DNA from: Hahella chejuensis KCTC 2396
GTDB taxonomy: Bacteria; Pseudomonadota; Gammaproteobacteria; Pseudomonadales; Oleiphilaceae
Assembly: GCF_000012985.1 (NCBI RefSeq)
Contig: NC_007645.1
Location: 3,502,501-3,566,500 of the forward strand
Reading direction: 5' to 3'
Length of the DNA stretch: 64,000 nucleotides
In this document: in pieces, positions 18,151 to 64,000 of the stretch
Layout of the letters: each line of letters starts with the position of its first letter
Position numbering within the stretch: the stretch's first letter is position 1
Notes under the pieces: model-generated
Databases searched by the model: none
What the model was told of the DNA's origin: nothing
What the model saw: only the letters and a program-made list of their open reading frames with translations
Program-made: the position numbers and the translations under genes

Positions 18151-18180
18151 GATGTTTCAGTGATTTTACGCGCGTGGATT

Positions 18181-20498: not shown

Positions 20499-20526
20499 TA
20501 CTTATCTTTCCTGGAACAGATCTTTC

Positions 20527-21366: not shown

Positions 21367-21380
21367 TTTTTCAGGCGCCG

Positions 21381-26481: not shown

Positions 26482-26552
26482 AAGGTATCTCCCTATATCA
26501 GCGTCCCCTTCCTAAGATCAATTCATCAGATTTCGGCTAACTATTAATCAGG

Positions 26553-26582
26553 CAGACAAATAGCTTCCTTCTATTTTGTCTG
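26553..26582 (-). repeat. Palindromic element, copy 2, overlapping a sulfotransferase stop
   Basis: CAGACAAATAG (26553-26563) pairs with CTATTTTGTCTG (26571-26582), an 11-bp stem with one bulged base and a 7-base loop. The stop codon of the second sulfotransferase (26571-26573) lies inside it. On the minus strand the loop reads AAGGAAG and GATTAAT follows the stem. Confidence 0.65.
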
Positions 26583-27491: not shown

Positions 27492-27767
27492 ATCATGATA
27501 ATCCGAAATGAAGTATAGACCAGGAAGTAAACGCCAATTGTAACCGTATCTGTTTTTATGTATCGACTTTTATTATCTTAATAACGTCGGTCTGGAGTGT
27601 TTGCGATTGAAATCAAATCATTAAAATAAACAATTAAAACCGCCATCAGATACAATATTTACTTTATATTTTTAAGTCATTCCTTTGACCTGGAAAATTT
27701 ATAACCTCCTGCTAATACTTTATCAAATGCGATGAATGCACCGCGCCTGACGTCACAGGAGGACGCC

Positions 27768-37959: not shown

Positions 37960-38035
37960 AATTCCATACCTTGTTATGCTCTCAGACGAGGTCGTCTGAT
38001 ATAAATCCTTGTGGTCCTTGCTGCGCCCCTGATCA

Positions 38036-44563: not shown

Positions 44564-47500
44564 TCAATCCAGCGCACATTGCAGCGCTTCCTTGAAGCGG
44601 GCGCCCCAGTCTTCCTGGGCCGCCTCGGCGCGATACGCCAACGCCTCCAGCCGGATGTCGAAGCCGGCGTCATGTTCCGCCACCTCACAGGTCAGGCTCC
44701 ACTGCGACTGCGCTCCCGCCAGGCCGGGCAGCTCAAGCTGGCGACAAGGGACTCCGGCGATGCGGCCGGTGAAACCTTCTTTCTTGAAGTAACCGAAAAA
44801 GGCGGCGGGATACAGCGCCTCTCTGGACAGGTCAGGGTGACGGGCGCCGAGGTCCTCCGCATCGAACAGATAATGACGACAGGCCTCGCGAACCGCATTG
44901 GACACCTCTTGCAACAAGGCGCCCCCCTGCTCCGACGCCATGATCACCCGCACAGGCAACAGGGTCATCAGCGGCGCGATGACCGTCTGTTGCGCCAGAT
45001 TGTCGCGGCCGTGGAAGATCATGGAGACCAGTTGCTCCGCCTGCTGGTCGAGTCCACTCTTGAACAGGGCGAACACCGCCATAAAGTATTCTGGAACGCT
45101 GATCTTCAGTCTGGCGGTCAGCGCTTCAATGCGCGCCTTGCAGTCGGCGTCCACAGAGACCAGCCAGGCGCCGGTGCGCGGTTGAGCAGTGACCGCCGGC
45201 GAGGCCGGCGTCCAACCTTGCAGTTGCGCCAGCCAGTAATCCGCGTGCGTGCGTCGCTGAGCGGCGAAGGCCGGGCTGTAGAACAACTCGGAGTACGCGC
45301 TCAGATCGCCGCCGGCGTCGGACTGGGCGGCGTCCGCCGTCAGCTCATGCAGAACCTGGGTCAGTCCCGAGCCGTCAATGCAGGCATGAGAGAAGTCCAG
45401 CAACAAAACGCCGCCCTGAGCATCGGACACCCAGCGACCGCGCACGTTTACGCCATCTTCCAGAGAAAACGGCCGCACAAAGTCGCGCACGTCCTCTTCC
45501 AGACTCCCCAGGCTTTGCCGTTTTTCCAGACGAAACAGGAAGCGTTTGGCGGGACGCAGGAAAAGTTCGCCTTCCGCCAGCGTAAACTGCGCGCTGAGAC
45601 TCTCATGGCGTGAAAACACCGTTTGCAGCAGATTGCGCAGTTGTTTCAGATCCGGCTCCGCATCAAACGCCAGCGCCACAAAACTGTTGTTGCTGAGATC
45701 GCCGGGATTCAGTTTCACCGCCTTGTAAATCGCTCTTTGCGCAGGCAACGCCCGGATGCCCTGGGTTGGTGACTGAGTTGATGCTGGCGGCTTAGTTGAC
45801 GCTGACATGAGTGTCGCTGATTGCGCGTCCGCAGTCTGTTCCGCCTGAGAACGAACCAATTCGGCTTCAATCAACCTGGCCTGACTCTCCAGATCCAGAT
45901 GCGCCACGATCGCGCCCAGAGACAGAGCGAGATGGAACTCCCGCTGAATGCCCGCCATCAGCGCCACCGCCAGCAGCGAATGTCCGCCGGCTTCGAAAAA
46001 GTGCGTTTGACGGCCAATGGCGTCGGTGTTGAGCAGAGAGCGCCACAACTGCGCCAGCCTGGCCTCCACGCCGTCCCTGGGCGCTTGCGCCTCAGAAGGA
46101 GCCACGGCGCTGAAAGACGGCGCCGGCAATGCTTTGCGATCCAGTTTGCCATTGCTGGTGACGGGCATGGTCGCCAGCCAGACAAAGTTGGAAGGAATCA
46201 TGAACGCCGGCAGACGGTCTTGCAGATGTTCCCGCAGCGCGAGATTCAACGCGTCTGCCTGAGCGTCCACGTCTTCGCCGTTCGCCAGCGCCAGTGACGG
46301 CGCCGCCGTGACATAGGCGACCAGACGCGCGTCTCCCGGCGCATCTTCGCGCACCAGCGCAACGCATTCCCTGACGCTGGCGTGGGACGCAATCGCCGCC
46401 TCCACCTCGCCCAGCTCAATGCGAAAACCGCGCAGCTTGACCTGAAAGTCATTGCGTCCCAGGTACTCAATGTCGCCATTCGGTAGAAAACGCGCCAGAT
46501 CGCCCGTGCGATACATGGCCCGCCCCCCGTCAGCGCAGAATGGATCGGCGACGAATTTTTCGGCGGTCAGCTCGGGTTGATTCAGATAGCCCCGCGCCAC
46601 GCCCACGCCAGCGATATACAGCTCGCCAACGACTCCGACCGGACAGGGCTGGCGGTGCGGATCAAGGATATAAAGGCGGATGTTGTCGATCGGGCGACCG
46701 ATGGGAACCGTCGCGCCGACCTCATTGCCCACGCAATCCCACACCGTCACGTCAATGGCGGCCTCGGTCGGTCCATACAGGTTGTACAGTTCAACGCCGG
46801 GGAATCGCTCCCGAAACCGGCGCACGCTCTGAGCGGGCAAGGCTTCGCCGCTGCAAAATACATGGCGCAGGCTGTCGCTGACGCCGGCCGCCGCCTGATC
46901 CAGGAACGGCGACAGCATGGACGGCACGAAATGCAGGGTGGTGACGCGACGGGCGCGGATGAGGTCGCTCAAGTACACCGGGTCCTTGTGCCCCTCCGGC
47001 TTCGCCACCACCAGGCGCGCGCCGTACATCAACGGCCAGAAGAATTCCCACACGGAGACATCGAAGCTGAACGGCGTTTTTTGCAGCACCGCGTCCTCCG
47101 CCGTCAAAGCGTGGGCCTTCTGCATCCAGGTCAAACGGTTCACCACACCGCGATGTTCGTTCATCACGCCTTTCGGGCGTCCGGTGGACCCGGATGTGTA
47201 GATGACATACGCCAGATGAGAGGCGTTCACCGCCGTTTCTTCCCGGCTCAGATCGACGCTGCGCTTGTGCTCCCAGGCCGCTGTGGCGTTGAGATCAATC
47301 AGGCGCGCCTCGCGCTCTACGGCATAGGCCGCCAGCAGCGCATTAACGTCCGCGGGTACTTGAGCGTGAGTCAGCACCGCTTTCGGAGCGGCGTCGCGCA
47401 ACATGTAGTCGAGACGGTCGCCGGGATAATGCGGGTCCAGCGGCGCATAGGCGGCGCCGGCTTTCAACACCGCCAGCAAGGCCACCACCATTTCCAGACT

Positions 47501-50500
47501 GCGCTCCACGCAGACGCCGACGATGGCGTCCGGCCCGACGCCCACGTCTTCCTTCAGATAGCGCGCCAGTTGATTGGCGCGGCGGTTCAACTGCGCATAG
47601 GTCAGCGTTTCCTCGCCGAATTCCACTGCCACCGCGTCCGGCGTGCGCGCAGCCTGCGCTTCGATCAACCAATGCAGGCAGGCCTCGCCAGGAAAGTCCG
47701 CCTGGGTCTGATTCCAGCGTCGCACCACCAGATCACGTTCCTGCTCAGGCATGGCGCTCAGACGGCCAAGTCGGGTTTCCGGCGCCGCTTCCAGGGCGCC
47801 GACGATTTCCCGCAGCGCCGTCTCAAAAAAGTCGCACACCCGCTCTGGATCATGTCCCTGCGTCACCTGTGCGTTGACCACAAAATCATCGCCAAAATCG
47901 TCCACATTCACCGACACCGGATAGGTGGTGCGCTCCATCACGCCGGAGTAGCTGACGCCCTCTACGGCGGAGGGATTGAGGGCCTGAAACGGGTCCGCCG
48001 ACGGAACGTTGCGCACGTCACTGTGACGGTAGTTCAACATGGTCGTGAACAATGGCGTCTCGCCCTGAACCTGCGCGGACTTTTGCGCCTGCGCCAGGGA
48101 GGCCTGTTCATGCTTCACCAATTGCATCAGCCTGTCCTGGGCGTTCCACAATCCTTCCAGCACCGGCAGCGCCCCCAGACGCAGACGAATCGGCAGCGTG
48201 TTGATGAACTGCCCCATGGCGCTCTCCGCTTCGTCGCCGGCGAACATGCGTCCCAGCAGCACCGTGCCGAACACCACGTCATCGCGCCCGCTCAGGCTGC
48301 CCACTACCTGGGCCCAGGCCAGATGAATGATCGCTGCGACGCTGACGCCATGCGCCCTGGCCTGCCGCCGTATCTGCGCGGATTGCGCCGGAGAAAGCGA
48401 GCGCCAGGCCTCCGTGACCGCATCTTCGCCGGTCAGATACTGTTCCAGGCCAAGAGGCGCAGGCCCCGGTTCATAGTCCAGCAGCATGGCGTCGAAGAAG
48501 GCTTTGCGCTCCGCAGTATTGATGTCGGAATACAGGCCGGATCGGGTCAGGGAGAACGACACCGCGGACGCCGGCGCCAGCGCTTTGCCCAGCAATTGCG
48601 CTTCTATCTCCTGCTGCATTTTTTCTACAGTGGCGTGGTCCACCGCCAGATGATGCAACAGGTGCAGCAACACCCATTGCCCGTTCTGGGCGTCATAGCA
48701 GTAGTAACAACGCTGCAAGGGCGCCCTGGCGATATCGAAGCGTTGCGCGGATGCAGCGCAGCGTCGCTTCAGGGCGGTCACGGCGTCTTCACCCTCCCTT
48801 TCCGCATGCACTTCCTCTACGGCCAACGGCGCTTCTCGCCAAACCACCTGCAACGGTTGCGTCAGCCCTTCATAGGCGATGCCGACGCGGAAAGCGTCGT
48901 GCCGGGCGATGGTATTGCGCAGCGCGTCCAGATAGCCATGCAACAGATCGGCGCTGGCGAACCGGGTCGCCTGCCATAACACATAGGGGTCCGCCGCGGG
49001 GTTAGCGAGAGCATGATAGAACATGCCCTGCTGCAGCGGCCCCAAAGGACAGACGTCCTTGATGTTGGCGAGTCCGCCCGTGGTGGCGGCGATGGCGGTC
49101 TGTTCCTCCTGGCTCAGTTGCGACCACAACGTCGGCCGGGTTTCGTTCGCCTCTAAAGTCGCCGTCCCCTGCTGCGCGTCAAACCGCCGCAACTGCGTCG
49201 CCAGATCCGCCAGGACCGGGTGCTGATACAGGGTGTGCGCATCCACGATGAAGCCGCGACGACGCAGCGCCAGCATCATTTTCACGATAAGCAGAGAGTG
49301 GCCGCCCAGGTTGAAAAAGTGCGCATTGCGGCCGATGTCCTGAACCCCCAGCAGCTCGCTCCACACCTCCGCCAGCAGGCGCTCCAGCGCAGTCTCGGGC
49401 GGCGTGGCGTCGCCGTTGTTCGCCGCCCCGTGGGCGATGACCGGAAAGGCTTTACGGTCGACCTTGCCGCTGGCGGATAACGGGAAACGCTCCATGATGA
49501 CCACCGCCGCGGGCCTCATGTAGTCCGGCGCCTGCTCCTGCATATAACGGCGAATGCTTTCCTGAACGCCTTCTGAGGTCTGGCGTTGCTGCGCACGCTC
49601 CGAGACCAGGACGAAGGCCGCCAGACATTTGCTGTCCGCATCCTCTCCCTGCGCCGCCACGACCGCATCGCGCACCGCCGGATGCCGCATCAGCATGGCT
49701 TCGACTTCACCCAGTTCAACCCGATAGCCGCGTATTTTGACCTGAAAGTCGATGCGACCCAGAATGTCCAGCAGCCCGTCCGGCCGCCAGCGCGCCAGAT
49801 CCCCCGTGCGATACAGGCGCCGCGGCCCGCCGCCGTCCACATCGATATCGACGAACCGGGCGGCGGTCTCCTGCGGACGCTGATGATAGCCATAGGCGAG
49901 TTGCAGCCCGCCGATGCACAGCTCACCCGGCGTTTCGTCGCGCAACGGACGGTTGTTCTCGTCCAGCACAAACAACTCAACCTGATCGATGGGCGCCCCC
50001 ACTGAGGGCAGATCCGGCCATTGCCGGGGATGTCCGCTCAGGGTGTGCGCCGTCACCACATGGCTTTCCGACGGACCGTAGTGGTTATGCAGACGGCAGT
50101 TCGGTAAAGCGCTGAAGAATTGCCTGATGGCGGGGGTGATCACCAGCTGCTCGCCGGCGGTCACCACATCAAGCAGTCCGCCGGGATAGCGATCCTCCGC
50201 CACCGCCGCCAGCGCCAGGCTGTTCAGCGCCACATAAGGCAGGAATATCCGTTGCGCCTGCTGCGACTCAATCAGCGACAACAGCGCCAGCGGGTCCAGA
50301 CGCAGCTCGTTCGCCATCAACACCAGCTCGCCGCCGCTGGCCAGCGTGGCGAAGATTTCCTGAAACGACACATCAAAACTCAACGGGGAAAACTGCAGGG
50401 TTTTCTTGCCTGCGTAGTCGCCCTGCTCGCGAATCTGCCAGACCAATAAATTCACCAGGGCTTTGTGGGGCATACACACGCCTTTGGGCGCGCCCGTGGA

Positions 50501-51043
50501 GCCGGAGGTATAGATAAGGTACGCCAGATCCTCCGGCGTGCAGGCGCGGGACGGATTCTGCGACTCGTCGTCGTTTGCGTCGCCGGAAAAGTCATAGGCG
50601 TCCATATCCAGGAAGGCGAAGGTATCGGGCAGCGCGCGGATAATCTCGGCGCTGGAAATCACCACTGAGACATTGGAGTCGCGCAGAATATAAGCCTGAC
50701 GCTCAAGCGGATAACTCATATCCACCGGCGCATAGGCGGCGCCGGCTTTGAGCGCGCCCAGCACGGCGACGATAGCGTCTATGCCGCGATCCAGACAGAC
50801 GCCCACTACCGCCAGTTCGTCGCCATAACGCCGGCGCAATTCATGCGCCAGCCTGTTGGCGCGGCGGTTCAGCACGTCATAGGTCAGGGTTTCCGCGCCA
50901 AAGCTGAGAGCAATGGCGCTCGGCGTCAGCGCCGCCTGACGCTCGAACAGGTCGTGCACGCAATCGTCCGCGACGGCGTTTGCACCCGGGTCGGTTTGTT
51001 TGAGATGGCCAGAATTACTGTCTAACAACGATTTAGTAAACAT
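44564..51043 (-). CDS. NRPS-2: A-PCP-C-A-PCP-C synthetase, predicted Pro and Ser
   Basis: Seen: 2159 aa. It begins directly with A1 (YTSGSTGAPKG, YRTGDLARW, SASGKVDRK), then PCP1 (NLGGHSLL), C (HHLAVDH), A2 (YTSGSTGRPKG, NLYGPTEAAID, TSNGKLDRK), PCP2 (EAGGHSLLA) and a final C domain with SHACIDG. A1 pocket residues D-V-Q-I-V-A-H-V-V resemble the proline code; A2 D-V-W-H-F-S-L-I-D matches the serine code of EntF-like domains. With no C domain before A1, it must receive its upstream chain from a protein ending in C; PKS-1 is the only one seen. The start is ATG 51043 (AGAAG six bases before), overlapping the transporter gene by 11 bases; a TTG at 51064 is less likely. Confidence 0.92.
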   Translation of the reverse strand: MFTKSLLDSNSGHLKQTDPGANAVADDCVHDLFERQAALTPSAIALSFGAETLTYDVLNRRANRLAHELRRRYGDELAVVGVCLDRGIDAIVAVLGALKAGAAYAPVDMSYPLERQAYILRDSNVSVVISSAEIIRALPDTFAFLDMDAYDFSGDANDDESQNPSRACTPEDLAYLIYTSGSTGAPKGVCMPHKALVNLLVWQIREQGDYAGKKTLQFSPLSFDVSFQEIFATLASGGELVLMANELRLDPLALLSLIESQQAQRIFLPYVALNSLALAAVAEDRYPGGLLDVVTAGEQLVITPAIRQFFSALPNCRLHNHYGPSESHVVTAHTLSGHPRQWPDLPSVGAPIDQVELFVLDENNRPLRDETPGELCIGGLQLAYGYHQRPQETAARFVDIDVDGGGPRRLYRTGDLARWRPDGLLDILGRIDFQVKIRGYRVELGEVEAMLMRHPAVRDAVVAAQGEDADSKCLAAFVLVSERAQQRQTSEGVQESIRRYMQEQAPDYMRPAAVVIMERFPLSASGKVDRKAFPVIAHGAANNGDATPPETALERLLAEVWSELLGVQDIGRNAHFFNLGGHSLLIVKMMLALRRRGFIVDAHTLYQHPVLADLATQLRRFDAQQGTATLEANETRPTLWSQLSQEEQTAIAATTGGLANIKDVCPLGPLQQGMFYHALANPAADPYVLWQATRFASADLLHGYLDALRNTIARHDAFRVGIAYEGLTQPLQVVWREAPLAVEEVHAEREGEDAVTALKRRCAASAQRFDIARAPLQRCYYCYDAQNGQWVLLHLLHHLAVDHATVEKMQQEIEAQLLGKALAPASAVSFSLTRSGLYSDINTAERKAFFDAMLLDYEPGPAPLGLEQYLTGEDAVTEAWRSLSPAQSAQIRRQARAHGVSVAAIIHLAWAQVVGSLSGRDDVVFGTVLLGRMFAGDEAESAMGQFINTLPIRLRLGALPVLEGLWNAQDRLMQLVKHEQASLAQAQKSAQVQGETPLFTTMLNYRHSDVRNVPSADPFQALNPSAVEGVSYSGVMERTTYPVSVNVDDFGDDFVVNAQVTQGHDPERVCDFFETALREIVGALEAAPETRLGRLSAMPEQERDLVVRRWNQTQADFPGEACLHWLIEAQAARTPDAVAVEFGEETLTYAQLNRRANQLARYLKEDVGVGPDAIVGVCVERSLEMVVALLAVLKAGAAYAPLDPHYPGDRLDYMLRDAAPKAVLTHAQVPADVNALLAAYAVEREARLIDLNATAAWEHKRSVDLSREETAVNASHLAYVIYTSGSTGRPKGVMNEHRGVVNRLTWMQKAHALTAEDAVLQKTPFSFDVSVWEFFWPLMYGARLVVAKPEGHKDPVYLSDLIRARRVTTLHFVPSMLSPFLDQAAAGVSDSLRHVFCSGEALPAQSVRRFRERFPGVELYNLYGPTEAAIDVTVWDCVGNEVGATVPIGRPIDNIRLYILDPHRQPCPVGVVGELYIAGVGVARGYLNQPELTAEKFVADPFCADGGRAMYRTGDLARFLPNGDIEYLGRNDFQVKLRGFRIELGEVEAAIASHASVRECVALVREDAPGDARLVAYVTAAPSLALANGEDVDAQADALNLALREHLQDRLPAFMIPSNFVWLATMPVTSNGKLDRKALPAPSFSAVAPSEAQAPRDGVEARLAQLWRSLLNTDAIGRQTHFFEAGGHSLLAVALMAGIQREFHLALSLGAIVAHLDLESQARLIEAELVRSQAEQTADAQSATLMSASTKPPASTQSPTQGIRALPAQRAIYKAVKLNPGDLSNNSFVALAFDAEPDLKQLRNLLQTVFSRHESLSAQFTLAEGELFLRPAKRFLFRLEKRQSLGSLEEDVRDFVRPFSLEDGVNVRGRWVSDAQGGVLLLDFSHACIDGSGLTQVLHELTADAAQSDAGGDLSAYSELFYSPAFAAQRRTHADYWLAQLQGWTPASPAVTAQPRTGAWLVSVDADCKARIEALTARLKISVPEYFMAVFALFKSGLDQQAEQLVSMIFHGRDNLAQQTVIAPLMTLLPVRVIMASEQGGALLQEVSNAVREACRHYLFDAEDLGARHPDLSREALYPAAFFGYFKKEGFTGRIAGVPCRQLELPGLAGAQSQWSLTCEVAEHDAGFDIRLEALAYRAEAAQEDWGARFKEALQCALD

Positions 51044-54000
51044 AACTATCTTCTTTGAACTCAATAAGTTGACCGTTTTTCATGGTGATCAGGGCGTCCG
51101 CCTCGGAAAAATACTCATCATCATGGGTCACGACAAAAACGATGCGTCCCTGGGCTTTCAGCATAGGGACCCATTCCTTGTAAAACCGGGATTTGGAGCG
51201 CGGGTCCTGGTCCGCGGCCCACTCATCCAGCACCACCACCGGACTGGGGTCCGCCAGCAGCATGGCCAAAGAAAGGCGTTTGCGCTGTCCGGTGGACAGC
51301 TTGATGTTGTCGAAGGCGCCGTCGTCCAGCAGCGTGGACTTATCCGCCATGCCAAGCAGCGCGATGTTGCGGTTGATGGCGTCCCGCGCCGCGATCAGGG
51401 CGGGGTCGTATATCCGCTTGAACAGCCAGTTGTCGCTGAATATGGCGCGGGTGTGCTCCAGCAACTGGCTTTGCGACACCTCGACGCCGTCTATCCTGAG
51501 GGCGCCCTGGGCGGGGGCGTAGAGCCCCGCCAGAATCATCGCCAGGGTGCTCTTGCCGGAGCCGTTGCCTCCCGTCAGGAAGTAGGCCTTGCCGCTTGCC
51601 GCCGTCATGGAGACCGGCCCGACCCCGAAGCATTCGCTTTCCCCGCCCGGCGCGGGATAGTTGAAGCGAACGCCTTCAAGCTGGAGGGTTTTGACCGGTT
51701 GCAGGGTTTTGACCGATTGCAGAGTCGCGCCCGCCGCGCCGGACTCAACGCTCTGGATGGACTGACTGAACGCCACCATATTGCGCATCAGGCTGCGCAG
51801 CCGCACCAGTTCGGGCATCGCCGACATGACCGCGTTCAAAGGACCGATCAGGTACAGCAGGATGATCAGATACTCTTTCGACGCATCTCCGTCGAACCGG
51901 GGAATCAGCAACGGAAACAGCAAAGCCACAGCCACCAGCAACACCGTAAGCAGGGACTCGCCGATGAAGAACGCGCTCAGGAAGCCGCGGTCATACTGAA
52001 TTCTCAGTCCCTTGAAGCGGTCTGACACCGCCTGGGCGTGACGATGGAAACTGCGTTTCACCGCCTCCCGGCGCAGCCCTTTGTAGCCCTTCTGCAGGTC
52101 TTCAACGGTGTCCATGAACTCGCTGCGGGTCTGCAACGCCTGCGGCATGATGCGGTTGGCGCGCTCGGACACGTAGTAGTACAGGCCGATCATGGGAACC
52201 GCGCAGGCCAGCAGAATGGACGTCGCCAGCGTGGATTTGAACGCCATCAGATAGGCGAACAGAAACACAATCGTCAGCAGGTTGGCGAAGAACGGCACGA
52301 AGGCGAGCACGCTTTTGGCCAGCTCCTGGGAATCTTCACCCACCACGGACTGAATTTTTCCAGGCGAGAGTCGCTCCACGCTTTTGTAATCCGACGCCAG
52401 CAGCTTACGGATGATCTCCATGCGCCAGCCCTGCACGAAAGCGTGGCCGAACCGCATGATCTGCAGTTCCGCGGCCTTGCGGGCGGAAATGTAGAAATAG
52501 ATGCAGTTGAACAACAGCGCAGCGCTGTACGCCAGATTGGCCGCCGGGCTGTCAATCGCCTGGATGATGCACAGCACCAGGGCCGAGTTGAGCAGGCCGG
52601 AAATCACCGTCAGGCCGACCACTTTGGCGATCATCAGCGACGAAAAGGTTTTGCTGTTGAACTTGTCGCTGTGACGGGACGCCTGGAAAAAGAACAGGCT
52701 CAGAGCGTTGACGCAGACCACCAGTCCCGCCGCCGCAGCCAGCAGACTTGTTGGGCCCCACACCAGCAGGTTCGCCCATCCCAGTCCCAGGGTAAGGGGC
52801 GGCGCGATCATCAGCACCGACGCCAGCGCGACGTTCAGCACCAGCAGGCGTCCCAGGAATGCGCGCCAGCTCACCCTTTCCGCAGACTGCACGAAACTCT
52901 CCTGCACAATGGCTGCGTCCACCTGGAATCCCTTGGCTCCGCCATCCGCCGGGCCCGCGGAACGCGCTTGCAGACGCCTCAGTACAGGCAGCGTCAGCAG
53001 CGCGCACAACCAGAAAACCACGGCGGCGACGGTTGCGATCCAGTCTCCCGTATCCGCGGCGAAGCGCTCAGGCAGAGGCTGCGGCGACGCGCCGCGCAGG
53101 TGTTCGAAGACCGCCCGGCCCAGCTGAATCACTTGCGGACTGTTGCTGTTGCCCAGCAACGCAACGCCGACTCCGGTTTGCGGGTCGAACGCCACATAGG
53201 CGCCGGCGTTGGGGTTCTGTCCCGGATGACTCCAACTGGTGGTGGCCCCCGCCTCCACATCCCACCCATAGGCGTAGCCTGCGTCGCTGTCGCCGCCATA
53301 GGGACGTTTCGCCTGCTGCGACGCCCACTGCAAGACGTCCAAACGGGAGTCGCTTAGCTTTGGCGGCTGCAGCAGAAACTGCAGCCACCGCGCCATGTCC
53401 TCCGGCGTGCTGAGGATATATCCCGCCGGGGTGTTTTGCAGATAGCGCGGCGCCTCATACGGTCTGGCGACGGTGAAGCTGAGCTTGTAGCCCGATATGC
53501 GCGGCGCGGTGGCGGCGGGATCGCCTTCCACGAAGGTGTCCTTCATGCCCAGGGGCAGAAAGATTTTCTCCCGTAACAGGACCGCGAAGGATTTCCCCGT
53601 CGCCCGCTCCGCCGCCAGCCCCAGCAGGCTGTAGTTCAGCGTGGCGTACTCTTCCCTGGCGCCGACCGGGTAAGCCAGCGGCGTGTCCCGCAACAAGCCC
53701 GGCAATTGCTCCAGAGCGTTGGCGGCGTCGCTGGGGCGCAGCAGGTCCAGGGTATCCCCGGACAGACCGCTGCTATGGAACAGCAGATTATTCAGGCGAA
53801 TGGCGGAATATCCCAACTCCGGGCGTTGATTCAGCTCCGGAATCCAGCGCGTGATCGCATCCTGCCGGCTCAGCGCGCCCTCCTGCTCCAGCACGGCGAT
53901 CAACAGGCCGGTGAAGGCTTTCGAACAGGACGCCAGCTCGAATACGCCGGCCTCCTGCGCCCCCAGACGCAGCGTGTGCGCCTGACCATTGACGACCACG

Positions 54001-54176
54001 CTCAGTCCCCCAGTGGGAATCTGTGACGCGTCCCAGCGCCGGGTCAGCTCGCTGACCGTCTGCGCCAGGTCCGCCGCCGGCTTGACGCCCGCCATGTCGG
54101 CGAACGCGCGCCCCGTCAGCGCAAGCAGGAGGCTGATCAGAAGTACGCCAATGCGGATTAAGCCGACATTATTCAT
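51033..54176 (-). CDS. ClbP-like serine peptidase fused to a peptide-export ABC transporter
   Basis: Seen: 1047 aa. Signal-like N-terminal helix (IRIGVLLISLLLALTGRAFA). A class C beta-lactamase-fold domain follows (about 40-370), with Ser83-x-x-Lys86 in LASCSKAF, Tyr177 in EEYATLNYSLLG and HPG at 317-319. Three membrane helices lie near 379-400, 443-465 and 471-496. Then an exporter TMD (from about 512) and an NBD with Walker A GGNGSGKST, LSTGQRKRLSLA and VVLDEWAADQDP, typical of SyrD/PvdE cyclic-peptide exporters. Peptidase plus three helices is the ClbP/XcnG/ZmaM layout that removes an N-acyl-D-Asn prodrug cap; fusion to an ABC exporter is a known variant. Role: export of the NRPS product with cleavage of its leader on the periplasmic side. 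It overlaps PKS-2 by 8 bases. Confidence 0.9.
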   Translation of the reverse strand: MNNVGLIRIGVLLISLLLALTGRAFADMAGVKPAADLAQTVSELTRRWDASQIPTGGLSVVVNGQAHTLRLGAQEAGVFELASCSKAFTGLLIAVLEQEGALSRQDAITRWIPELNQRPELGYSAIRLNNLLFHSSGLSGDTLDLLRPSDAANALEQLPGLLRDTPLAYPVGAREEYATLNYSLLGLAAERATGKSFAVLLREKIFLPLGMKDTFVEGDPAATAPRISGYKLSFTVARPYEAPRYLQNTPAGYILSTPEDMARWLQFLLQPPKLSDSRLDVLQWASQQAKRPYGGDSDAGYAYGWDVEAGATTSWSHPGQNPNAGAYVAFDPQTGVGVALLGNSNSPQVIQLGRAVFEHLRGASPQPLPERFAADTGDWIATVAAVVFWLCALLTLPVLRRLQARSAGPADGGAKGFQVDAAIVQESFVQSAERVSWRAFLGRLLVLNVALASVLMIAPPLTLGLGWANLLVWGPTSLLAAAAGLVVCVNALSLFFFQASRHSDKFNSKTFSSLMIAKVVGLTVISGLLNSALVLCIIQAIDSPAANLAYSAALLFNCIYFYISARKAAELQIMRFGHAFVQGWRMEIIRKLLASDYKSVERLSPGKIQSVVGEDSQELAKSVLAFVPFFANLLTIVFLFAYLMAFKSTLATSILLACAVPMIGLYYYVSERANRIMPQALQTRSEFMDTVEDLQKGYKGLRREAVKRSFHRHAQAVSDRFKGLRIQYDRGFLSAFFIGESLLTVLLVAVALLFPLLIPRFDGDASKEYLIILLYLIGPLNAVMSAMPELVRLRSLMRNMVAFSQSIQSVESGAAGATLQSVKTLQPVKTLQLEGVRFNYPAPGGESECFGVGPVSMTAASGKAYFLTGGNGSGKSTLAMILAGLYAPAQGALRIDGVEVSQSQLLEHTRAIFSDNWLFKRIYDPALIAARDAINRNIALLGMADKSTLLDDGAFDNIKLSTGQRKRLSLAMLLADPSPVVVLDEWAADQDPRSKSRFYKEWVPMLKAQGRIVFVVTHDDEYFSEADALITMKNGQLIEFKEDSYVY

Positions 54177-57100
54177 TGACTTCGCTCTCCTGACGCTGGG
54201 TCGCGCCCCGCAACTTGCGACGGGCCTGCAGCGCCCGTCGCTTGTCGCCAAGGTCCGCCTGCGCAGACGGCGCGGGATCGACCGGCGCAGACTCCGCCGG
54301 CGCCAGTTCCTTGCTCAACTCACGCAGGGAGGCGGCTTTAAACAGCAGGGCCACCGGAATCTCACGGGCCAGCCTTTGCTCCAGTCGTTTGGCGAACTGG
54401 ATCAGGTCCAGTGAGGTCGCCCCCAGATTGAAGAAGCTGGCGTCAACATCCAGCCCGTCCGTGCCCAGGAAGCTTTCCAGCATGGCGCGCATCGCCGTCA
54501 GCAGCGTTTCCGCGTCCGCGCCCGCCAGAGATTCCGCCTCATCGGCGGCGTCCGGCGCGCCCTGAGAAGCGCTGGCGCTGAACAGCATCTGCTGAGTGCT
54601 CAATTGTTTCTCCAGCACCACGCCCACAGGCAGTTTGGAGACGGCGACAAAAGGCGTCTGCAGCTGACGCGCCAGGGTCGCCATCGCCAGCGCGATGCGC
54701 GTTCCTTCCTGGTTCGACAGTCCCTCCTCCCGCAGTTTGGCGGCGAAGCTTCGCTCCTCCGAAGGCGTCTCCATCGCAATGACGATCTTTCCGATGTGCC
54801 GGCCCTGGGCCATAAACTGAAACGCGTCGGCGATGTCTCTGGCGGCGTAGGCTTTGGTGGGCAAAGGTCTCAGCGCCTCCCGCTCCAGCAGCGCCACGAC
54901 TTCGGCCCAGGCTTCTTTGTAAGCAGGATGCTCCGCCCCAGCCTGTACGGCGTGGAAACTGCCGCCCTCGGCAAACATCGACAGGCCCAGTTTCCAGTCC
55001 TGCAAAATGTCCCGCAGCCCCAGCTCCAGGAAGCGCCCCTGGGGCGCCAGCAAGGACAGGCTCTCCTCCAGCAACTCACCCGCCAGCGCGTTGAGAATTA
55101 CCTGGAAAGGCCGCTCGCCCAGGCGCTCGCGGAAAACGTCGCCGAATTCACGGGTTCTGGAGTTCGCCGCGCCCTGGGCGCCCAGACTCACCAGCAGATT
55201 ACGTTTCTCTTCCGTACCGGCGGTGACCCAGACTTCCGCCCCCAGATGCAGCGCGATCTGCATGGCCGCCATACCCACGCCGCCAGCGGCGGAATGGATC
55301 AGTATGCGTTCCCCCGGCCTCAGATTGGCGGTGTGCCGCAACGCGATCCAGGCGGTGGTGAACGCGACAGGGACGCCGGCGGCCTGCTGATATCCGAGCA
55401 CAGGGGGGATAGGAGCCACCACCCGCTCCGGCATCAGGACATGCTCCGCCAGACAACTATGGCCCGCGCACATCACGCGGTCACCGACGCGAACCTTCGT
55501 CACCTCCGCACCAATCCGGGTGACGACCCCCGCCGCTTCCTGGCCGAAGGTCATGCTCGGGTCGGACGGCGCGGGTAAAACTCCCAGGGCGATCAAGACA
55601 TCCTTGAAGTTAAGTCCCGCCGCCCTGACTTGAATCTCCACCTCCAGCGGGCCGGGCTCCCGGCGCGGTTCCTGGCGGGATTCGAAGGCGAAATTGCCAT
55701 CGCGGGCGTCGCCATTGCGCAAGCGCATGACGGCGTGACGCGCCGAGTCATTACTGCGTAACGCCTCAGACGCATCCACCAGCAGCAGATCGTCGATCGC
55801 CACCAACAAGGCGTTCGCATCCGAATAGATTTTCACCTGTAGCAACTTGCCGGCGCCCAGATCGCTGACCTGCACCCGGCTCCTGACCTGGTCGCCCATG
55901 GGCGCATACTGTGTGAAGGCGCCGATGGACACTGGCGCATATTGCGCGTCTTCCTGTTCCGGAGAGGCGATCAGGGTGGCGGTGTCCAGCAATGCGACAT
56001 GCAGACCCTCCGCCGCCGCTTCGCCCTGATAAGCCGCCGGCAGCTGCAATTGCACAGCGACGGCGTCGGGGGCGACGCGATCCACCGCGATCACATTGCG
56101 CCAGCGCGGTCCGAAGGCCAGCGCGCCTTTGGGGCTGACGCCGACACCATCGCGAACGCGAAACAGAGGCTCCCTCTCCCCAACTGACTCCTCGTCCCCG
56201 ACTGTCTCCTTACCCCCGACTGGCTCTGGGCCCGCCTGTTGCGATGAGATCGCGCTGTCGCCAAGGCGGATTTTGCCGGTTGCGTGGCGGGTCCAGGACT
56301 CTGCGGAGAATGCGCCGACGCCGGAGAAAATCGTGAACGCGGCGTGGTCGTCGGAGAACGCCACCGCCACGTCTAACGCCACTCCGTCCTGCACCACCAG
56401 CGGCCTTTCAATGGCGACGCCGTGCAGGGAAAACCGTTGCGCCAGCGCTTGCTCGGCGATGGCGCGATAGGCCAGCGTCACCATGCCCATGGCCGGCATC
56501 ACCGTCGTGGCGGCATCCATGCGGTGCTCGTCCAGCCACCAGTCCCGCCTGGCGTCCAGGGAGCGGCGCCAAAGCGAGGCATGCTCCGCTTCGGACCGCA
56601 CAGGCTGTTTGAGGGCGTCATCCAGTTGCTGCGCCGAGCGCGTCGCCATGCCGGATTCCGCCCAGTCGTCCCAGGCGATGGCCAGGGCGCGGCCGCCCCG
56701 TCGACGCACCTGTTCGGCGTATGCCTCCAGGCAGGCGTTGGCGGAAACATAGGCGACCTGACCGACTTTTTCCTTCGGCAGTAAGTTGCCCAGACTGGAG
56801 AACAGCAACAGGGTCGGTTTCCCCAGCCGCTCCAGGTTGTCGCACAGGAAACGGGTTCCCGTGACTTTCGGCGCCAGGGTGGCGAGGGATTCCGCCTCCG
56901 AGCGCATCTGCATCATGGCGCCTTCGCCGCGACCGGCGGTATGGAACACATAGTCGACGCCAACGCCCTGCGCCGCGAGCTGGAACACCGGCGCGAACGC
57001 CTTGTTCAGCGCCGCTTCGTCGCCAAGATCCCCTTGCAGCAAAGTGACGCGGCCGCCTTTGGATTCAAGGCTCAGCACCCATTGCAGAAACTCAGCGTTG

Positions 57101-60100
57101 GCGCTCTGACCGGCGATCTCCGCCGCCCAGTCCCGTCGCGGCGGTAAAGACTTGCGCACCAGCAACAGCAGATGACAGTGGTAGACCTCCGCCAGATGCT
57201 CCGCAATCGCCGCGCCCATGCCGCCATTGGCGCCGGTGATGAGCACCCAGCTGTTGCGGCTGATATCCGGAAGCGCGCGCGCCAGAGGTTGCGCCTGTAT
57301 CCGTGCGCTTACACGCCGACGCCAGAACGCATCGCGTCGCAGGCAATACAACTGGCCGCCGCGCCAGCCGCGCTCCAGCCAGGGTTTGAGAGCCTGGGCG
57401 ACGCTTTCTCCATCAGGGCCGTCCGCCTGCTCGCTCGTCAGGTCTATGCACAGGGCTGACAGATCCGTGTATTCTTCCGGCGCAATCAGCAATGGGCCCA
57501 GCAACTGGCTTTTTTCCGCGTTCAGGGTTTCCGTTCCCTCCCAGGCCGCCATGCCGACGGCGGGAAATATCAGTCTTAATTTTGGCGAGGACGGCTGCGC
57601 CGCGCTCCACCTGGCCAGCGCCACCGGCAGCCAGAACGCCCAGAATTGCGCCTGTGTGGCGTCCAGGTCATCCAGCAATCCGGTGACAATCACGTCCATC
57701 GCCGCAGACGCCCGCACCCCCTGCTGCGTCAGCCAGTCCTGCAGCTCAGCATGGACCTTGCTGAAATCGCCCCGCCACTCGCCGCACTCGATCACTCCAC
57801 AGCGCTGGTTGCGGGTTTCCAGCGCCTGCGCTAGATCCCGTTCTCGTTGCGTCAATTGACGACAGATAATCCAGATATCCGGGGTTTCATCCATCGGCAA
57901 ACGTTCGGGCGGTTGCGCGCCAATGCTTTCCCATTCCTGACCATAAAAATGCGAGCCAAAGAACAGCGAAGCGACCCTGTTTGAATCCTGTGCGGAAGAT
58001 GCAGGTAATGAACGCGCCTTTAATGAACGCGCCTTCGTCAGTGGCGCACAAACGCGACGCTCAAAGGCGTGACCAGGCAGATGACTGCGCAGGCTCTCTT
58101 GATCCCGCGCCGGCCGTAGGTACAGCCGCGACCAGGCGATGCGCGCGCCCTGGGTCCAGGCTTTGGCGATGAACTGGCGTAACGCCGTCGCCTCTTGCCC
58201 CACCCCGGCGGAGCCCAGACTTGGCGTCAATCTCGACGCCTGCAGGCGCAGCCATTTGCGCGCATGCTGCAGCAAATCCACGCCGGTTCCGATTTGCGTA
58301 TAGAGCGCATCAGGATGCGCCGCATTCACTTCCGCCAGCGCCGCGCCCCACTGCACCGGCGACAGCATTTGCCGCACCCAGTATTGCGGATCGCACATAT
58401 CGCGCTCGTCGAGCTTGCGGCCCGTGGCGGTCGAGAAAATGGCGCATTGCGCCGGTTGCAGCGCGCAGGATTGCAGCATTTCGCCGAACGCCCGCGCCGC
58501 CGATTCGATCAACGGCGTATGGAAGGCGTGGGACACCGCCACGCGCTTGAACGTCAGTCCCTGGCGCGTCAGCCAGGCTTCCGCCGCCGCAGCGCCCTCC
58601 TCCGAGGTCGCCAGGGTCCAGGTTCCCGGACTCAGTTCCGCAACCCGCCACAGCTCAGCCGGCAATGGGTCGTCAAAGCCTTGCTTGCAGCTCACGGCGA
58701 ACACCGCGCCTTTGGGCGTGGCGTCCATCAGTCTGGCGCGGGCGACCACCAGCGTCATGCCCTCTTCCGGGGTGAAAACGCCTGCGACCGCCGCTGCGGC
58801 GAATTCCCCCAGACTGAAGCCGCACAGCGCCGCCGGTTGGCAGCCTATCTCGCGCAGCCAGACGCCCAGGGCGGTTTGCAGCGCATAGATCAGCGGTTGC
58901 AGATACAGCGTCGACAAGGATTCCGGCTGTTTGAGGCGCTCGATCAGGGCGTCCCGCTCAGCGCCGGGCTGCGCGCCAAGTTCTGTGATCAGTAATTGCG
59001 CCGCCTGCTCCAGCAGACGAAAATAACGTTCGCCGAATTCGGGAAATTCCGCCGCCAGACGCAGTCCCATTTGCGGGGATTGCGATCCCTGCCCCGGGAA
59101 CAGCCAGACTTGGTCGTCTCTGGGCTTCTCGGCGCCGTCCGTCCATTCCCATGCGTCCAGCTGCTGCTTCCAGTCCGCGCCGTCGGCGGCGACAAAGGCC
59201 GCGCGACAGGAATACTCGCTGCGGTTGTCCTGCAACTGCCGGGCGATTAGCGACAGATCCGCGCCGCCCTCTGCAAGCTCCAGGTCCAGATGCAAGGCGT
59301 AGGTTTGCGCCAACCGGGCCAGCGCCGCCGGCGAGGATGCCGACAGCGGCAGAATATGCCCCTGCGCCGCCGTCTGTGTCTCAGCGGTCTTCACGGCGCT
59401 CTCCACGGATCTGGCTGCGTCCAGATCGTCGATGCGCGGCGGTTGCTCCAGCAGTACATGCACGTTGGTGCCGCCGATGCCGAATGAGCTGACTCCCGCA
59501 CGGCGAATGGGTTGCCCGGCAGGCCAGTCCGTCGCCTGGGTCGGCGCCCAGAAAGGGGTTTTATCCAGTTCCAGGTGGGGATTGGGCTGGTTGAAATGCA
59601 GCGTGGGAGGAGTCTTGCCATAGCGAACGCTCAGGGCGGCCTTAATCAGACCCGCAACGCCCGCCGCCGCATCAAGATGCCCCATGTTGGATTTGACGCT
59701 GCCGATGGCGCAACGAAACTGCGCCAGTTGCTCCGGCGGCGTCAACGCCTGCGCGGCTTTGTTCAACGCCTGAATTTCTATCGGATCGCCAAGCACCGTG
59801 GCGGTGCCGTGGGCTTCGATCATGCCCAGACTGGAGAACGGAATATCCGCCAGTTGGTACACCTGGGAAATGACATCCGCCTGCCCCTGCACGCTGGGGG
59901 CTTCAAAGCTCACCTTGCGATCGCCGTCGTTGTTCATGCCGGACTCCAGGATCACCGCATGAATCGGATCGCCGTCCGCCAGAGCGTCTTCCAGAAGCTT
60001 CAGCAGCACCACGCCCACGCCATTGCCGTTGACCGTGCCCTGGCCCTGATCCGAGAAAGTCTTACAGTGACCGTCCGGCGACAGGATCATGCCGTTCTGG

Positions 60101-60750
60101 TACAGGTAGCCGCCCGTCACCGGATCGGTGATGCAGGCGCCGCCGGCCAGGGCCATGTCGCACTCTCCGGCCAGCAGGGACTTGCAGGCCAGGTGCACGG
60201 CGGACAGCGAGGTCGAACAGGCGGTCTGCACATGCACCGCCGGTCCCTGCAGTTTCATCCGATAGGCGATCTGCGTGGCGAAAGCAGCGGGATCGTTGTA
60301 GTTGCCGACGTCGAACATTTCCGCAATGTCCTGACTGGCGCCCGCGAACTGCTCCAGCCGCTCCATGTTCAGCGTCGAACCGATGAACACGCCGGCGTTG
60401 AGAGAGGACGCGCCTGGATTCAGCCCGGCGTCGAGAAAGGCGTTGTAGCTGACTTCGTGAAGCACCCGCAATTGCGGGTCCATTTTCTGGGCTTCCCGCT
60501 GTGAATAGCCGAAGAACTCATAGTCAAAGCACTCCGCATCCTCAAGCGCGGCTTTGGCCGGCACGTAGTTGGGCAGGTCGATGAGATCGGATGGCGCGCC
60601 GGCGGCCAACAGCTCGTCCCTGGAAAAAAACGACACCAGCTCGCGCCCCGCCAGGAGATTGCGCCAGAACGCGCGCCAGTCGGGGCTTTGGGGAAATCGG
60701 CAGGAAATACCAATTATGGCGACTTCGTTACCGCTAAATTCTCGCTTCAT
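54169..60750 (-). CDS. PKS-2: KS-AT-KR-DH-ER-ACP fully reducing module
   Basis: Seen: 2193 aa. KS (10-435): Cys178 in TACSTSLS, His314 in EAHGTATV, His358 in SNMGHLD. AT (about 546-850): FPGQGSQ, nucleophile Ser646 in CGFSLGEF (Phe where His is usual) and HAFH at 741-744, pointing to malonyl-CoA. KR (about 1000-1330): ITGANGGMGAAIA and the VAYVSAN active-site region. Then DH: WWLDEHRMDAATTVMPAMG with the catalytic His, and an Asp in LLDTATLIA. ER (about 1690-2000): GLNFKDVLIALG and HSAAGGVGMAAMQIA. ACP: NLGATSLDLIQF. The order KR-DH-ER differs from the usual DH-ER-KR. Role: adds one fully reduced two-carbon unit to the aminoacyl chain from NRPS-1. Its ATG overlaps the NRPS-1 stop (ATGA). Confidence 0.93.
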   Translation of the reverse strand: MKREFSGNEVAIIGISCRFPQSPDWRAFWRNLLAGRELVSFFSRDELLAAGAPSDLIDLPNYVPAKAALEDAECFDYEFFGYSQREAQKMDPQLRVLHEVSYNAFLDAGLNPGASSLNAGVFIGSTLNMERLEQFAGASQDIAEMFDVGNYNDPAAFATQIAYRMKLQGPAVHVQTACSTSLSAVHLACKSLLAGECDMALAGGACITDPVTGGYLYQNGMILSPDGHCKTFSDQGQGTVNGNGVGVVLLKLLEDALADGDPIHAVILESGMNNDGDRKVSFEAPSVQGQADVISQVYQLADIPFSSLGMIEAHGTATVLGDPIEIQALNKAAQALTPPEQLAQFRCAIGSVKSNMGHLDAAAGVAGLIKAALSVRYGKTPPTLHFNQPNPHLELDKTPFWAPTQATDWPAGQPIRRAGVSSFGIGGTNVHVLLEQPPRIDDLDAARSVESAVKTAETQTAAQGHILPLSASSPAALARLAQTYALHLDLELAEGGADLSLIARQLQDNRSEYSCRAAFVAADGADWKQQLDAWEWTDGAEKPRDDQVWLFPGQGSQSPQMGLRLAAEFPEFGERYFRLLEQAAQLLITELGAQPGAERDALIERLKQPESLSTLYLQPLIYALQTALGVWLREIGCQPAALCGFSLGEFAAAAVAGVFTPEEGMTLVVARARLMDATPKGAVFAVSCKQGFDDPLPAELWRVAELSPGTWTLATSEEGAAAAEAWLTRQGLTFKRVAVSHAFHTPLIESAARAFGEMLQSCALQPAQCAIFSTATGRKLDERDMCDPQYWVRQMLSPVQWGAALAEVNAAHPDALYTQIGTGVDLLQHARKWLRLQASRLTPSLGSAGVGQEATALRQFIAKAWTQGARIAWSRLYLRPARDQESLRSHLPGHAFERRVCAPLTKARSLKARSLPASSAQDSNRVASLFFGSHFYGQEWESIGAQPPERLPMDETPDIWIICRQLTQRERDLAQALETRNQRCGVIECGEWRGDFSKVHAELQDWLTQQGVRASAAMDVIVTGLLDDLDATQAQFWAFWLPVALARWSAAQPSSPKLRLIFPAVGMAAWEGTETLNAEKSQLLGPLLIAPEEYTDLSALCIDLTSEQADGPDGESVAQALKPWLERGWRGGQLYCLRRDAFWRRRVSARIQAQPLARALPDISRNSWVLITGANGGMGAAIAEHLAEVYHCHLLLLVRKSLPPRRDWAAEIAGQSANAEFLQWVLSLESKGGRVTLLQGDLGDEAALNKAFAPVFQLAAQGVGVDYVFHTAGRGEGAMMQMRSEAESLATLAPKVTGTRFLCDNLERLGKPTLLLFSSLGNLLPKEKVGQVAYVSANACLEAYAEQVRRRGGRALAIAWDDWAESGMATRSAQQLDDALKQPVRSEAEHASLWRRSLDARRDWWLDEHRMDAATTVMPAMGMVTLAYRAIAEQALAQRFSLHGVAIERPLVVQDGVALDVAVAFSDDHAAFTIFSGVGAFSAESWTRHATGKIRLGDSAISSQQAGPEPVGGKETVGDEESVGEREPLFRVRDGVGVSPKGALAFGPRWRNVIAVDRVAPDAVAVQLQLPAAYQGEAAAEGLHVALLDTATLIASPEQEDAQYAPVSIGAFTQYAPMGDQVRSRVQVSDLGAGKLLQVKIYSDANALLVAIDDLLLVDASEALRSNDSARHAVMRLRNGDARDGNFAFESRQEPRREPGPLEVEIQVRAAGLNFKDVLIALGVLPAPSDPSMTFGQEAAGVVTRIGAEVTKVRVGDRVMCAGHSCLAEHVLMPERVVAPIPPVLGYQQAAGVPVAFTTAWIALRHTANLRPGERILIHSAAGGVGMAAMQIALHLGAEVWVTAGTEEKRNLLVSLGAQGAANSRTREFGDVFRERLGERPFQVILNALAGELLEESLSLLAPQGRFLELGLRDILQDWKLGLSMFAEGGSFHAVQAGAEHPAYKEAWAEVVALLEREALRPLPTKAYAARDIADAFQFMAQGRHIGKIVIAMETPSEERSFAAKLREEGLSNQEGTRIALAMATLARQLQTPFVAVSKLPVGVVLEKQLSTQQMLFSASASQGAPDAADEAESLAGADAETLLTAMRAMLESFLGTDGLDVDASFFNLGATSLDLIQFAKRLEQRLAREIPVALLFKAASLRELSKELAPAESAPVDPAPSAQADLGDKRRALQARRKLRGATQRQESEVNE

Positions 60751-63700: not shown

Positions 63701-64000
63701 CAACGTCATGCAGGCAGGCGATGCGGAACACTTCGGCGTCCAGCTCGAAGGGCCGCGCCTTGGACTGGGCCAGCCAGTCGAGACAGCGGGCTTTGTGGGC
63801 TGACGCAACCAAAGGCGCATAGTCCAAAGCAATGCGGGGCGACGCATACACCGCCTGATGCGGCGCGCGCAGGCCACGCCACAGGAAAACGGATCGCAGG
63901 GCCGGCTGCGACGCCTGGATTCGCCGCCACAGATCGCCAATCTCCGCCTCGCTCGCCGGCGTGCGCAGAGTAAAGGACACGCCAATGTGATAGGCGCTGT
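60747..64000 (-). CDS. NRPS-1: C-A-PCP module (5' end beyond window)
   Basis: Seen: 1083 residues, open at the right edge. The frame is already inside a condensation domain at the edge (YHIGVSFTLRTP), so the GTG at 63980 is not a true start. The C domain has an intact FHHILMDGWS. The A domain shows FTSGTTGAPKG, SNHYGPSETT, FYRTGDAV and LTGKIDRR; pocket residues D-P-E-N-W-F-H-V-D give no known code. The PCP has DAGGDSIKI. A basic tail follows (KNRLADRRRKVKG). Role: supplies an aminoacyl or peptidyl chain to the KS of PKS-2. Given the ClbP-like exporter, an N-acyl-D-Asn loading module would be expected further right. Confidence 0.92.
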   Translation of the reverse strand, partial: SAYHIGVSFTLRTPASEAEIGDLWRRIQASQPALRSVFLWRGLRAPHQAVYASPRIALDYAPLVASAHKARCLDWLAQSKARPFELDAEVFRIACLHDVAAGTLSIAFCFHHILMDGWSSSLLVSLWVQGLRGQAIPPLASRLYSQQLWKGLDPEALRRSREYWRDALQGVDDRDVAVTTKLLDEPLFRRATSKSNRDDSPLAENTAKAGRLWPQARKAEIEALCRRAGVTPASFVYLCWALTLSKLTFQKTVAFGCAFSGREAALAQNAEQQPLGLFTNTTPLLLILDGAWTLEAALRAMFQTLQRTQAHEKTPPLLIREIAGQREELYDSLVVFDNYPIDPSLQDASYATCLTDLHTEETTHFGLTLTVSGADAWKVELSAGETFNGDPAAVTAAFHAFDSLAADLVAMADHAPIADCLLQLVPDQAQASHLVAGATTATADINAVLQGIRQRLIEAPQNIGLIDGDRPISHGELAQRIAAVQAQLARAGFVAGDRVGVHAPKGEGSTVAILAILFSGGSYFYLNPKDPTSRKQTLLELAGCGIVLCDAALIAELGADSGRLLLEIVERVEIEAPLATQTDSDVPSPLPALWSQRRPEDEFYFIFTSGTTGAPKGISIRNESVANLLDWFIGETGLTQADRVLGLTDLNFDPSVEDLFGSLCVGATLIYPAPRVLQERTAFIRTMQETEATLVNFIPGAIAPLLEDAPRLPAMRLWIFGGEELPLRLRDQLLAQGYAVSNHYGPSETTVDCLSARQSLDAEIAIGWPIQNVVAYCADIFDKPLPPGVRGELWVAGRAVARGYATNPVETARAFVRYQDQTFYRTGDAVTFSPASGFNYLGRIDDQVKINGVRIEPRELERMVETMAEVRASCLLPVSEAGGKRQWRLFVDSAAPAAQLEPRVREHIRRHLPESWTPSRILAVNGFARTLTGKIDRRRLLDIAARQAQQDALTAAAQAPLTDPVEAQVQAIWRDILETPAVASDINFFDAGGDSIKIITLQSQLQQRFARDIGVAVIFEHPTIASFAAWIRRSEASAEHTGAQTDPADAGAASTQAHILSSARSGKNRLADRRRKVKGSSVS

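Follow-up and report, generated by a model that had tools for sequence, protein, structure and literature searches.

A candidate prodrug-activating peptidase fused to an ABC half-transporter in a rhabdobranin-type gene cluster of Hahella chejuensis

A 64,000-nucleotide stretch of the Hahella chejuensis KCTC 2396 chromosome (contig NC_007645.1, forward-strand positions 3,502,501 to 3,566,500; hereafter the window) encodes a 1047-residue protein, designated P0001, that joins a ClbP-like serine peptidase to an ATP-binding cassette (ABC) half-transporter. Sequence features and gene context make it very probable that P0001 serves as the prodrug-activating peptidase in a cluster of nonribosomal peptide synthetase (NRPS) and polyketide synthase (PKS) genes of the rhabdobranin type, in the fused architecture designated type II. 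The peptidase-ABC fusion architecture and the rhabdobranin cluster family are both already known. Contributed here are the match of this locus to the rhabdobranin family, the presence of the system in Chromobacterium and in the genus of the window's host, and the clear division of the cluster into forms with and without the exporter. Coordinates are in window numbering, continued past 64000 for genes to the right of the window; those of P0001 and the cluster genes refer to the minus strand.

Architecture of the fused protein

The gene for P0001 is a single open frame at 51033..54176, with its ATG at 54176. The original prediction, made from the sequence of the window alone, had these coordinates right and gave no strand; the gene is placed on the minus strand because the plus strand is interrupted by stops. 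Residues 1-27 (54096..54176) form a predicted signal peptide, with a hydrophobic stretch at residues 4-22 and a cleavage site judged by eye. Residues 45-348 (53133..54044) make up the periplasmic serine peptidase domain, of family S12, which matches the Pfam family Beta-lactamase (PF00144) with an E-value of 4.6e-58. It is followed by a ClbP-type three-helix membrane domain, residues 378-497 (52686..53045), in which a simple scan finds strong hydrophobic segments at residues 380-398, 439-457, and 478-496. The ABC half-transporter occupies residues 516-1040 (51057..52631), with Walker A at 869-876, LSTGQ at 960, and Walker B at 980-985. Residues 854-987 match the Pfam family ABC_tran (E-value 7.9e-22). 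The membrane part of the transporter, in which the same scan finds four more hydrophobic segments, reaches 20.6 bits against PF00664, under the Pfam cut-off of 28. The top match of P0001 in PDB is full-length ClbP, aligned over residues 74-494 with the membrane domain included (E-value 6.8e-47). Pfam, the PDB match, and the hydrophobicity scan thus confirm the predicted union of a ClbP-like serine peptidase, three membrane helices, and an ABC exporter in one protein. The same fusion, full or nearly full in length and 72-76% identical, recurs in four named genomes of Photorhabdus, Xenorhabdus, and Chromobacterium, which argues against a sequencing or assembly artefact.

Residue equivalences were taken from the alignment of P0001 to ClbP in the PDB match, and conservation was counted over 23 aligned peptidases: fifteen from rhabdobranin-type clusters and eight distant ones from the genus of Xenorhabdus bovienii, presumably XcnG/AmiB-like. 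The ClbP catalytic residues S95, K98, and Y186 correspond to S83, K86, and Y177 of P0001 and are identical in all 23, so that Ser83, the residue proposed earlier as the catalytic serine, is borne out. The relevant parts of PMC9889268 describe N331 of ClbP, which selects D-Asn, as strictly conserved; all 23 peptidases have its equivalent, N321. ClbP S188, the second contact, is Thr179 in P0001 and Thr in every one of the 23. W460 and W466, strictly conserved according to the same source, and P468, highly conserved, are W467, W473, and P475 in P0001, with the same residues throughout the set. Among further positions given there as highly conserved, D381 corresponds to D378 (23 of 23), and K240 and F243 correspond to K231 and F234, kept in all fifteen cluster peptidases and replaced by Gln and Tyr in the eight distant ones.

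Among known prodrug peptidases, a distinction between type I and type II, due to Reimer et al. 2011, is relayed in the pertinent part of PMC4234257, and the fused peptidase-ABC proteins ZmaM, EdeA, and PamJ are named in that of PMC9889268. As described in such partial accounts, the type II proteins ZmaM, PamJ, and EdeA are single chains of ~1,100 residues that unite a ClbP-like peptidase with membrane helices and an ABC half-transporter, as P0001 does; their hosts are Bacillus, Paenibacillus, and Brevibacillus, whereas the named hosts of the P0001 lineage are Proteobacteria, and the likeness is one of descriptions. The type I proteins ClbP, XcnG, and AmiB have the same catalytic residues as P0001, its D-Asn-selecting Asn, and its three-helix domain, but lack the ABC half. 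For ClbP and ZmaM, activity has been assayed with a fluorogenic probe (PMC9889270). PCATs, which carry a C39 cysteine-type peptidase domain, also hold peptidase and exporter in one chain; in P0001 the peptidase is instead an S12 serine enzyme preceded by a signal peptide.

The surrounding biosynthetic cluster

P0001 lies within a run of fifteen genes, 29314-72995, every one on the minus strand. The original prediction looked to the right of the window for a starter module with condensation (C), Asn-specific adenylation (A), peptidyl carrier protein (PCP), and epimerization (E) domains, and took its absence as grounds for giving up the prodrug idea. A C-A(Asn)-PCP-E starter NRPS is encoded at 65323-69894. 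Its C and A domains are recognized by Pfam and its PCP and E domains by motif, namely the carrier motif GGDSI, the epimerase-type HHLICDVHSW (HHxxxDxxSW), and VGWFT. The specificity letters of its A domain are DLTKVGEVG, which we take to be the code for Asn. They are identical in 13 of 14 aligned rows, the remaining row differing at one letter, and are the same in Chromobacterium subtsugae, which was read separately outside the 14-row alignment.

A second group of genes points to a particular extender unit. An 83-residue acyl carrier protein (ACP; 72744-72995), at one end of the cluster, is followed by an acyl-CoA dehydrogenase (71600-72751), a stand-alone Ser-type A domain with the letters DVWHYSLID (69895-71490), and, beyond the starter NRPS, a free acyltransferase (AT; 64082-65326). 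A 3-hydroxyacyl-CoA-dehydrogenase-like gene (29314..30165), present in 15 of 15 clusters compared, is the last conserved gene at the other end. Together these five genes presumably form an aminomalonyl-ACP set of the zwittermicin/colibactin type. In an AT-less PKS module (32965..38214), KS-KR-ACP with a C domain behind it, neither Pfam nor the motif GHSxG reveals an AT, which fits supply by the free AT. The amicoumacin gene table of PMC5055758, as far as that table goes, lists similar dehydrogenase and ACP genes alongside a gene annotated as methoxymalonate biosynthesis; we prefer aminomalonyl over methoxymalonate because the cluster has a Ser-type A domain.

The original prediction held the product of the locus to be unrecognized. 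That part does not stand, as the cluster matches the published rhabdobranin (rdb) family (PMC9177418, section 13). By published description and sequence features, the cluster appears to belong to this family: it has the aminomalonyl supply genes, and its RdbH-like NRPS, A(Pro)-PCP-C-A(Ser)-PCP-C with no C domain at its start (44564..51064), carries letters for Pro and then Ser. These letters agree with the pre-rhabdobranin described in the relevant parts of PMC9177418, which has a separately built Pro-Ser branch joined to the aminomalonyl nitrogen; the same paper uses differences in the first A domain of RdbH to type rdb clusters. The rdb cluster of Xenorhabdus and Photorhabdus and the cluster in the window thus share the prodrug peptidase gene, the aminomalonyl unit, the Pro-Ser branch, and the RdbH first-A-domain differences. 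They differ in that the host of the window belongs to a genus other than those of X. bovienii, Photorhabdus khanii, and C. subtsugae, and in the exporter fused to the peptidase. A review table in PMC11547657, at its rhabdobranin entry, gives the activity as unknown, and a further paper that mentions rhabdobranin likewise assigns it no known function or activity. For P. khanii, pioamide was considered as a product and dropped, since the published assignment, so far as it was available, is to an NRPS cluster with five A domains.

The remaining genes complete the assembly line and its accessories. An NRPS module C-A-PCP with the letters DPENIGHVD (60747..64000) extends past the window to 64085, and a PKS module KS-AT-KR-DH-ER-ACP, P0003, lies at 54169..60750. 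An RdbI-like NRPS, A-PCP-C-A-PCP-TE, is at 38036..44491. Next come a Cupin_8 protein (31843..32952), without a match in two of the fifteen clusters (G458 and G482), and a stand-alone thioesterase (31029..31850), full in five clusters, partial in Photorhabdus tasmaniensis, and without a match in nine. A GNAT acetyltransferase (30215..30958) is found in 15 of 15; it has a single weak PDB match (E-value 0.0083) and is a possible second self-resistance gene.

We infer the substrate of P0001, its transport, the coupling of transport to cleavage, and the bioactivity of the product along the following lines. The starter module would load Asn, its C domain would add a fatty acyl cap, and its E domain would convert the residue to D-Asn before the chain is extended. 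Aminomalonyl-ACP would be made from Ser by the ACP, the Ser-A protein, the acyl-CoA dehydrogenase, and the hydroxyacyl dehydrogenase, and be handed by the free AT to the AT-less PKS. A Pro-Ser dipeptide may be made apart and then linked to the nitrogen of the aminomalonyl unit, in line with the published account of pre-rhabdobranin. By analogy with its family, the ABC half would act as a homodimer and move or flip the acylated product across the inner membrane. The signal peptide would put the peptidase on the periplasmic face, seated on the three-helix domain as in ClbP, where it would remove acyl-D-Asn, so that the active form is freed only outside the cytoplasm. The dependence of this last step on the peptidase is argued by analogy with the work of others in a relative: in the relevant parts of PMC9177418, deletion of rdb1P in Xenorhabdus budapestensis is reported to abolish the N-myristoyl-D-Asn congeners and to cause acyl-D-Asn-capped pre-rhabdobranins to accumulate, which amounts to the mutant test suggested by the original prediction, though in another species. 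In a Gram-negative host, the product freed in the periplasm would still need to pass the outer membrane, and no gene for that passage was recognized among the fifteen cluster genes.

Several features were noted around the cluster. Two sulfotransferases and an aspartyl/asparaginyl-hydroxylase-like gene (25558-28385) lie between a PEP-CTERM gene and the cluster; none of these three is matched in the other 14 cluster regions. An exosortase of the EpsH type and polysaccharide-export genes (ParA-like, Wzz, SLBB, rotamase) at 17263-22331 are found near the PEP-CTERM protein (24585-25262). About 41 kb to the right of the cluster, on the same chromosome, a second run of very long open reading frames (ORFs), up to 2369 residues, spans 113765-140032; it is NRPS/PKS-sized, as judged by length and start letters only.

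Fused and peptidase-only forms

The fused protein is rare. At an E-value of 1e-80, full-length P0001 is found in 3 of 58 relatives of the window's genome (that genome included), all in its own genus, where it occurs in three of seven. A sample of 398 genomes of the phylum, searched at 1e-60, gave a full-length match in the window's own genome only; three other matching genomes have the exporter half alone. The starter NRPS, as query at 1e-200, matched one of 369 genomes of the class, again the window's own. A scan of named genomes, which depends on exact short peptides and overlooks most relatives, gave five loci: full or nearly full-length proteins in P. khanii, P. tasmaniensis, X. bovienii T228, and C. 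subtsugae, and an exporter fragment in Treponema. Within the genus of P. khanii, 2 of 12 genomes (P. khanii and P. tasmaniensis) have the fused protein, and within that of C. subtsugae, 1 of 19 has it in full length and one more has a copy broken by the contig end, still running into the exporter half. Among 30 genomes of the X. bovienii genus, two have the fused protein (~75% identity) and seven have only a relative of the peptidase half (60-64%). A matching rdb-type cluster is present in 9 of these 30 and in 2 of the 12 genomes of the P. khanii genus.

The full P0001 query matched 77 records of a plasmid collection, none covering more than 80% of the query, and the best 40 of the 77 match the exporter half only. 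The peptidase half matched four plasmid records at 24-26% identity (three annotated as class C beta-lactamases, one as a serine hydrolase) and two unannotated places in phages, likewise at 24-26%. The sequences of ZmaM, PamJ, and EdeA were absent among the matches listed from the plasmid and phage collections.

We compared fifteen clusters gene by gene, nine from the X. bovienii genus and six from other genomes with the fused protein. For C. subtsugae, the GNAT, cupin, AT, PKS2, starter NRPS, and Ser-A genes are missing or mis-picked in the ORF table, which took longer ORFs overlapping them, but tblastn shows that the genes are present. Apart from gene gains and losses, gene order in the 14 further genomes is the same as in the window. 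Eight of the fifteen clusters, from the window's own genus, Chromobacterium, Photorhabdus, and two genomes of the X. bovienii genus, encode the fused protein. The other seven, all from the X. bovienii genus and otherwise nearly alike gene for gene, have the peptidase alone, and in these short clusters the gene for the RdbH-like NRPS comes next after that for the peptidase, the two being separated by -4 to 39 bases. When the exporter half was run by tblastn against the seven 60-kb regions, none of the short clusters contained a match. Outside the clusters, weak ATPase matches occur in five regions and none in G460, while G459 has a separate ABC gene 27% identical to the exporter half. The G459 cluster itself (G459:C1:3453001-3513000) looks broken: its reducing PKS matches in pieces and its RdbI-like NRPS ORF is short.

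In a tree of ten concatenated proteins, a branch with a FastTree support of 1.000 separates the eight fused from the seven short clusters; rows below 50% identity and the G459 PKS1 were dropped, and C. subtsugae is represented by six of the ten genes. The fused forms also group together in a tree of the peptidases (support 1.000). There the distant outgroup joins among the short forms by a very long branch with support 0.195, so that the root, and thus gain versus loss of the exporter half, is not settled.

Chromosomal sites and gene content vary among the clusters. Six of the seven short clusters share flanking ORFs (15 of 15 pairs); in G471, Pfam assigns these to PTS enzyme I, EIIA, and PLP-dependent enzymes. 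By site, the fused clusters sort into four groups that have no flanking ORFs in common: those of the window's genus, that of C. subtsugae, the Photorhabdus pair, and the pair from the X. bovienii genus; the X. bovienii fused cluster adjoins fliF/fliG. G+C content of the cluster is above that of both flanks in 14 of 15 loci and above one flank only in G460; across the loci, the flanks read cover just some kilobases (0.7 kb on one side in X. bovienii). The differing sites and the raised G+C fit movement between hosts. The first A domain of the RdbH-like NRPS has Pro-type letters in eleven of the fifteen, Ser-like letters (DVWHFSLIV) in two (X. bovienii T228 and G457), and is missing in the two Photorhabdus, of which P. 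tasmaniensis retains its C-terminal part. Ser-Ser or Ser-only side branches are suggested for these clusters.

Because the fused form occurs at four sites in four genera, and six of the seven short clusters share one site in one genus, the exporter may have joined the peptidase once, with the self-contained fused form then being the one that crossed between genera. We offer this only tentatively and hold it to be less likely than not.

Weighing the assignment

Several observations weigh against reading P0001 as the activating peptidase of a rhabdobranin-type cluster. ClbP K235, which is said to orient N331 but is not among the conserved positions given in section 6 of PMC9889268, so far as its relevant parts go, pairs in a weakly aligned stretch with Arg226 of P0001; the position is Arg in ten of the fifteen cluster peptidases and Leu, Gly, or Pro in the others. 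D387, highly conserved by the same account, and F462, described as variable, pair with A384 and N469, mismatches that likewise fall in weakly aligned stretches. Three A domains have no substrate assignment. The exporter half is absent from seven of the fifteen clusters and is therefore not required in cis for the cluster family. Finally, the exporter half falls under both relevant curated cut-offs. Its best family matches, which share the half-transporter architecture, are the YojI-type NF007813 (residues 516-1043; 270.9 bits, cut-off 604) and the cyclic-peptide exporter TIGR01194 (residues 516-1038; 256.8 bits, cut-off 286.2). The exporter of P0001 also differs from members of these families in being fused to an extracytoplasmic peptidase. 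The earlier label, a SyrD-like cyclic-peptide exporter, therefore holds as kinship alone.

We read the exporter half as constrained rather than as a relic. Between P0001 and its four named relatives it is 82-85% identical, compared with 72-74% for the peptidase and 50-54% for the membrane linker part. Separately, the window's own genome encodes a stand-alone cyclic-peptide exporter (G000:C1:2899348-2900949) that scores above the TIGR01194 cut-off and is 29% identical to the exporter half.

The alternative that survives best overlaps with the assignment above: the cluster may be a relative of rhabdobranin clusters with a clearly different product, the family label being approximate. We give this about one chance in four. 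Compared with the proteins of the window's cluster, the four multi-domain NRPS proteins in the other genera show 51-67% identity (mis-picked C. subtsugae rows excluded), the first A domain of the RdbH-like NRPS is Pro-like, Ser-like, or absent depending on the cluster, and the thioesterase and cupin genes vary in presence; however, the Asn, B, H2, and Ser-A domains hardly vary in their letters from cluster to cluster, and gene order is retained. It is very unlikely that the peptidase is instead a D-stereospecific resistance peptidase, degrading a peptide antibiotic with D-amino acids and not activating what the cluster itself makes. Resistance roles are reported for peptidases of this broad class (Li et al. 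2018), and the GNAT of the cluster may also mean self-protection, yet the starter module with its Asn-specific A domain and E domain, encoded in this gene run too, the conserved D-Asn-selecting Asn, and the capped precursors that accumulate on rdb1P deletion (PMC9177418, relevant parts) all speak for activation. We reject a siderophore system, with a PvdE-like exporter and a deacylase, as the least credible reading: the exporter half is akin to cyclic-peptide exporters and an iron-siderophore uptake set on the plus strand (73467-80737; binding protein, two FecCD permeases, ATPase, ferredoxin-like protein, TonB receptor) adjoins the cluster, but the whole set stands beside the cluster in only two of fifteen loci (G000 and G001), is absent in G005, where P0001 is 98% identical, and no siderophore-type building block was recognized.

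The relevant parts of the PMC9177418 main text mention no fusion, and the main text has no occurrence of Chromobacterium. In the literature as partly available to us, we found no published link between Chromobacterium and a biosynthetic gene cluster with a D-asparagine peptidase, and, with supplements outside the search, no published statement of the split into fused and peptidase-only forms. If the single-fusion history were true, the fusion would have made the cluster portable, since a new host need not provide a transporter for the acylated precursor. An orphan cluster of a large-genome bacterium and of Chromobacterium subtsugae is now tied to a known product family, and its product can therefore be sought by simple deletion of the peptidase.

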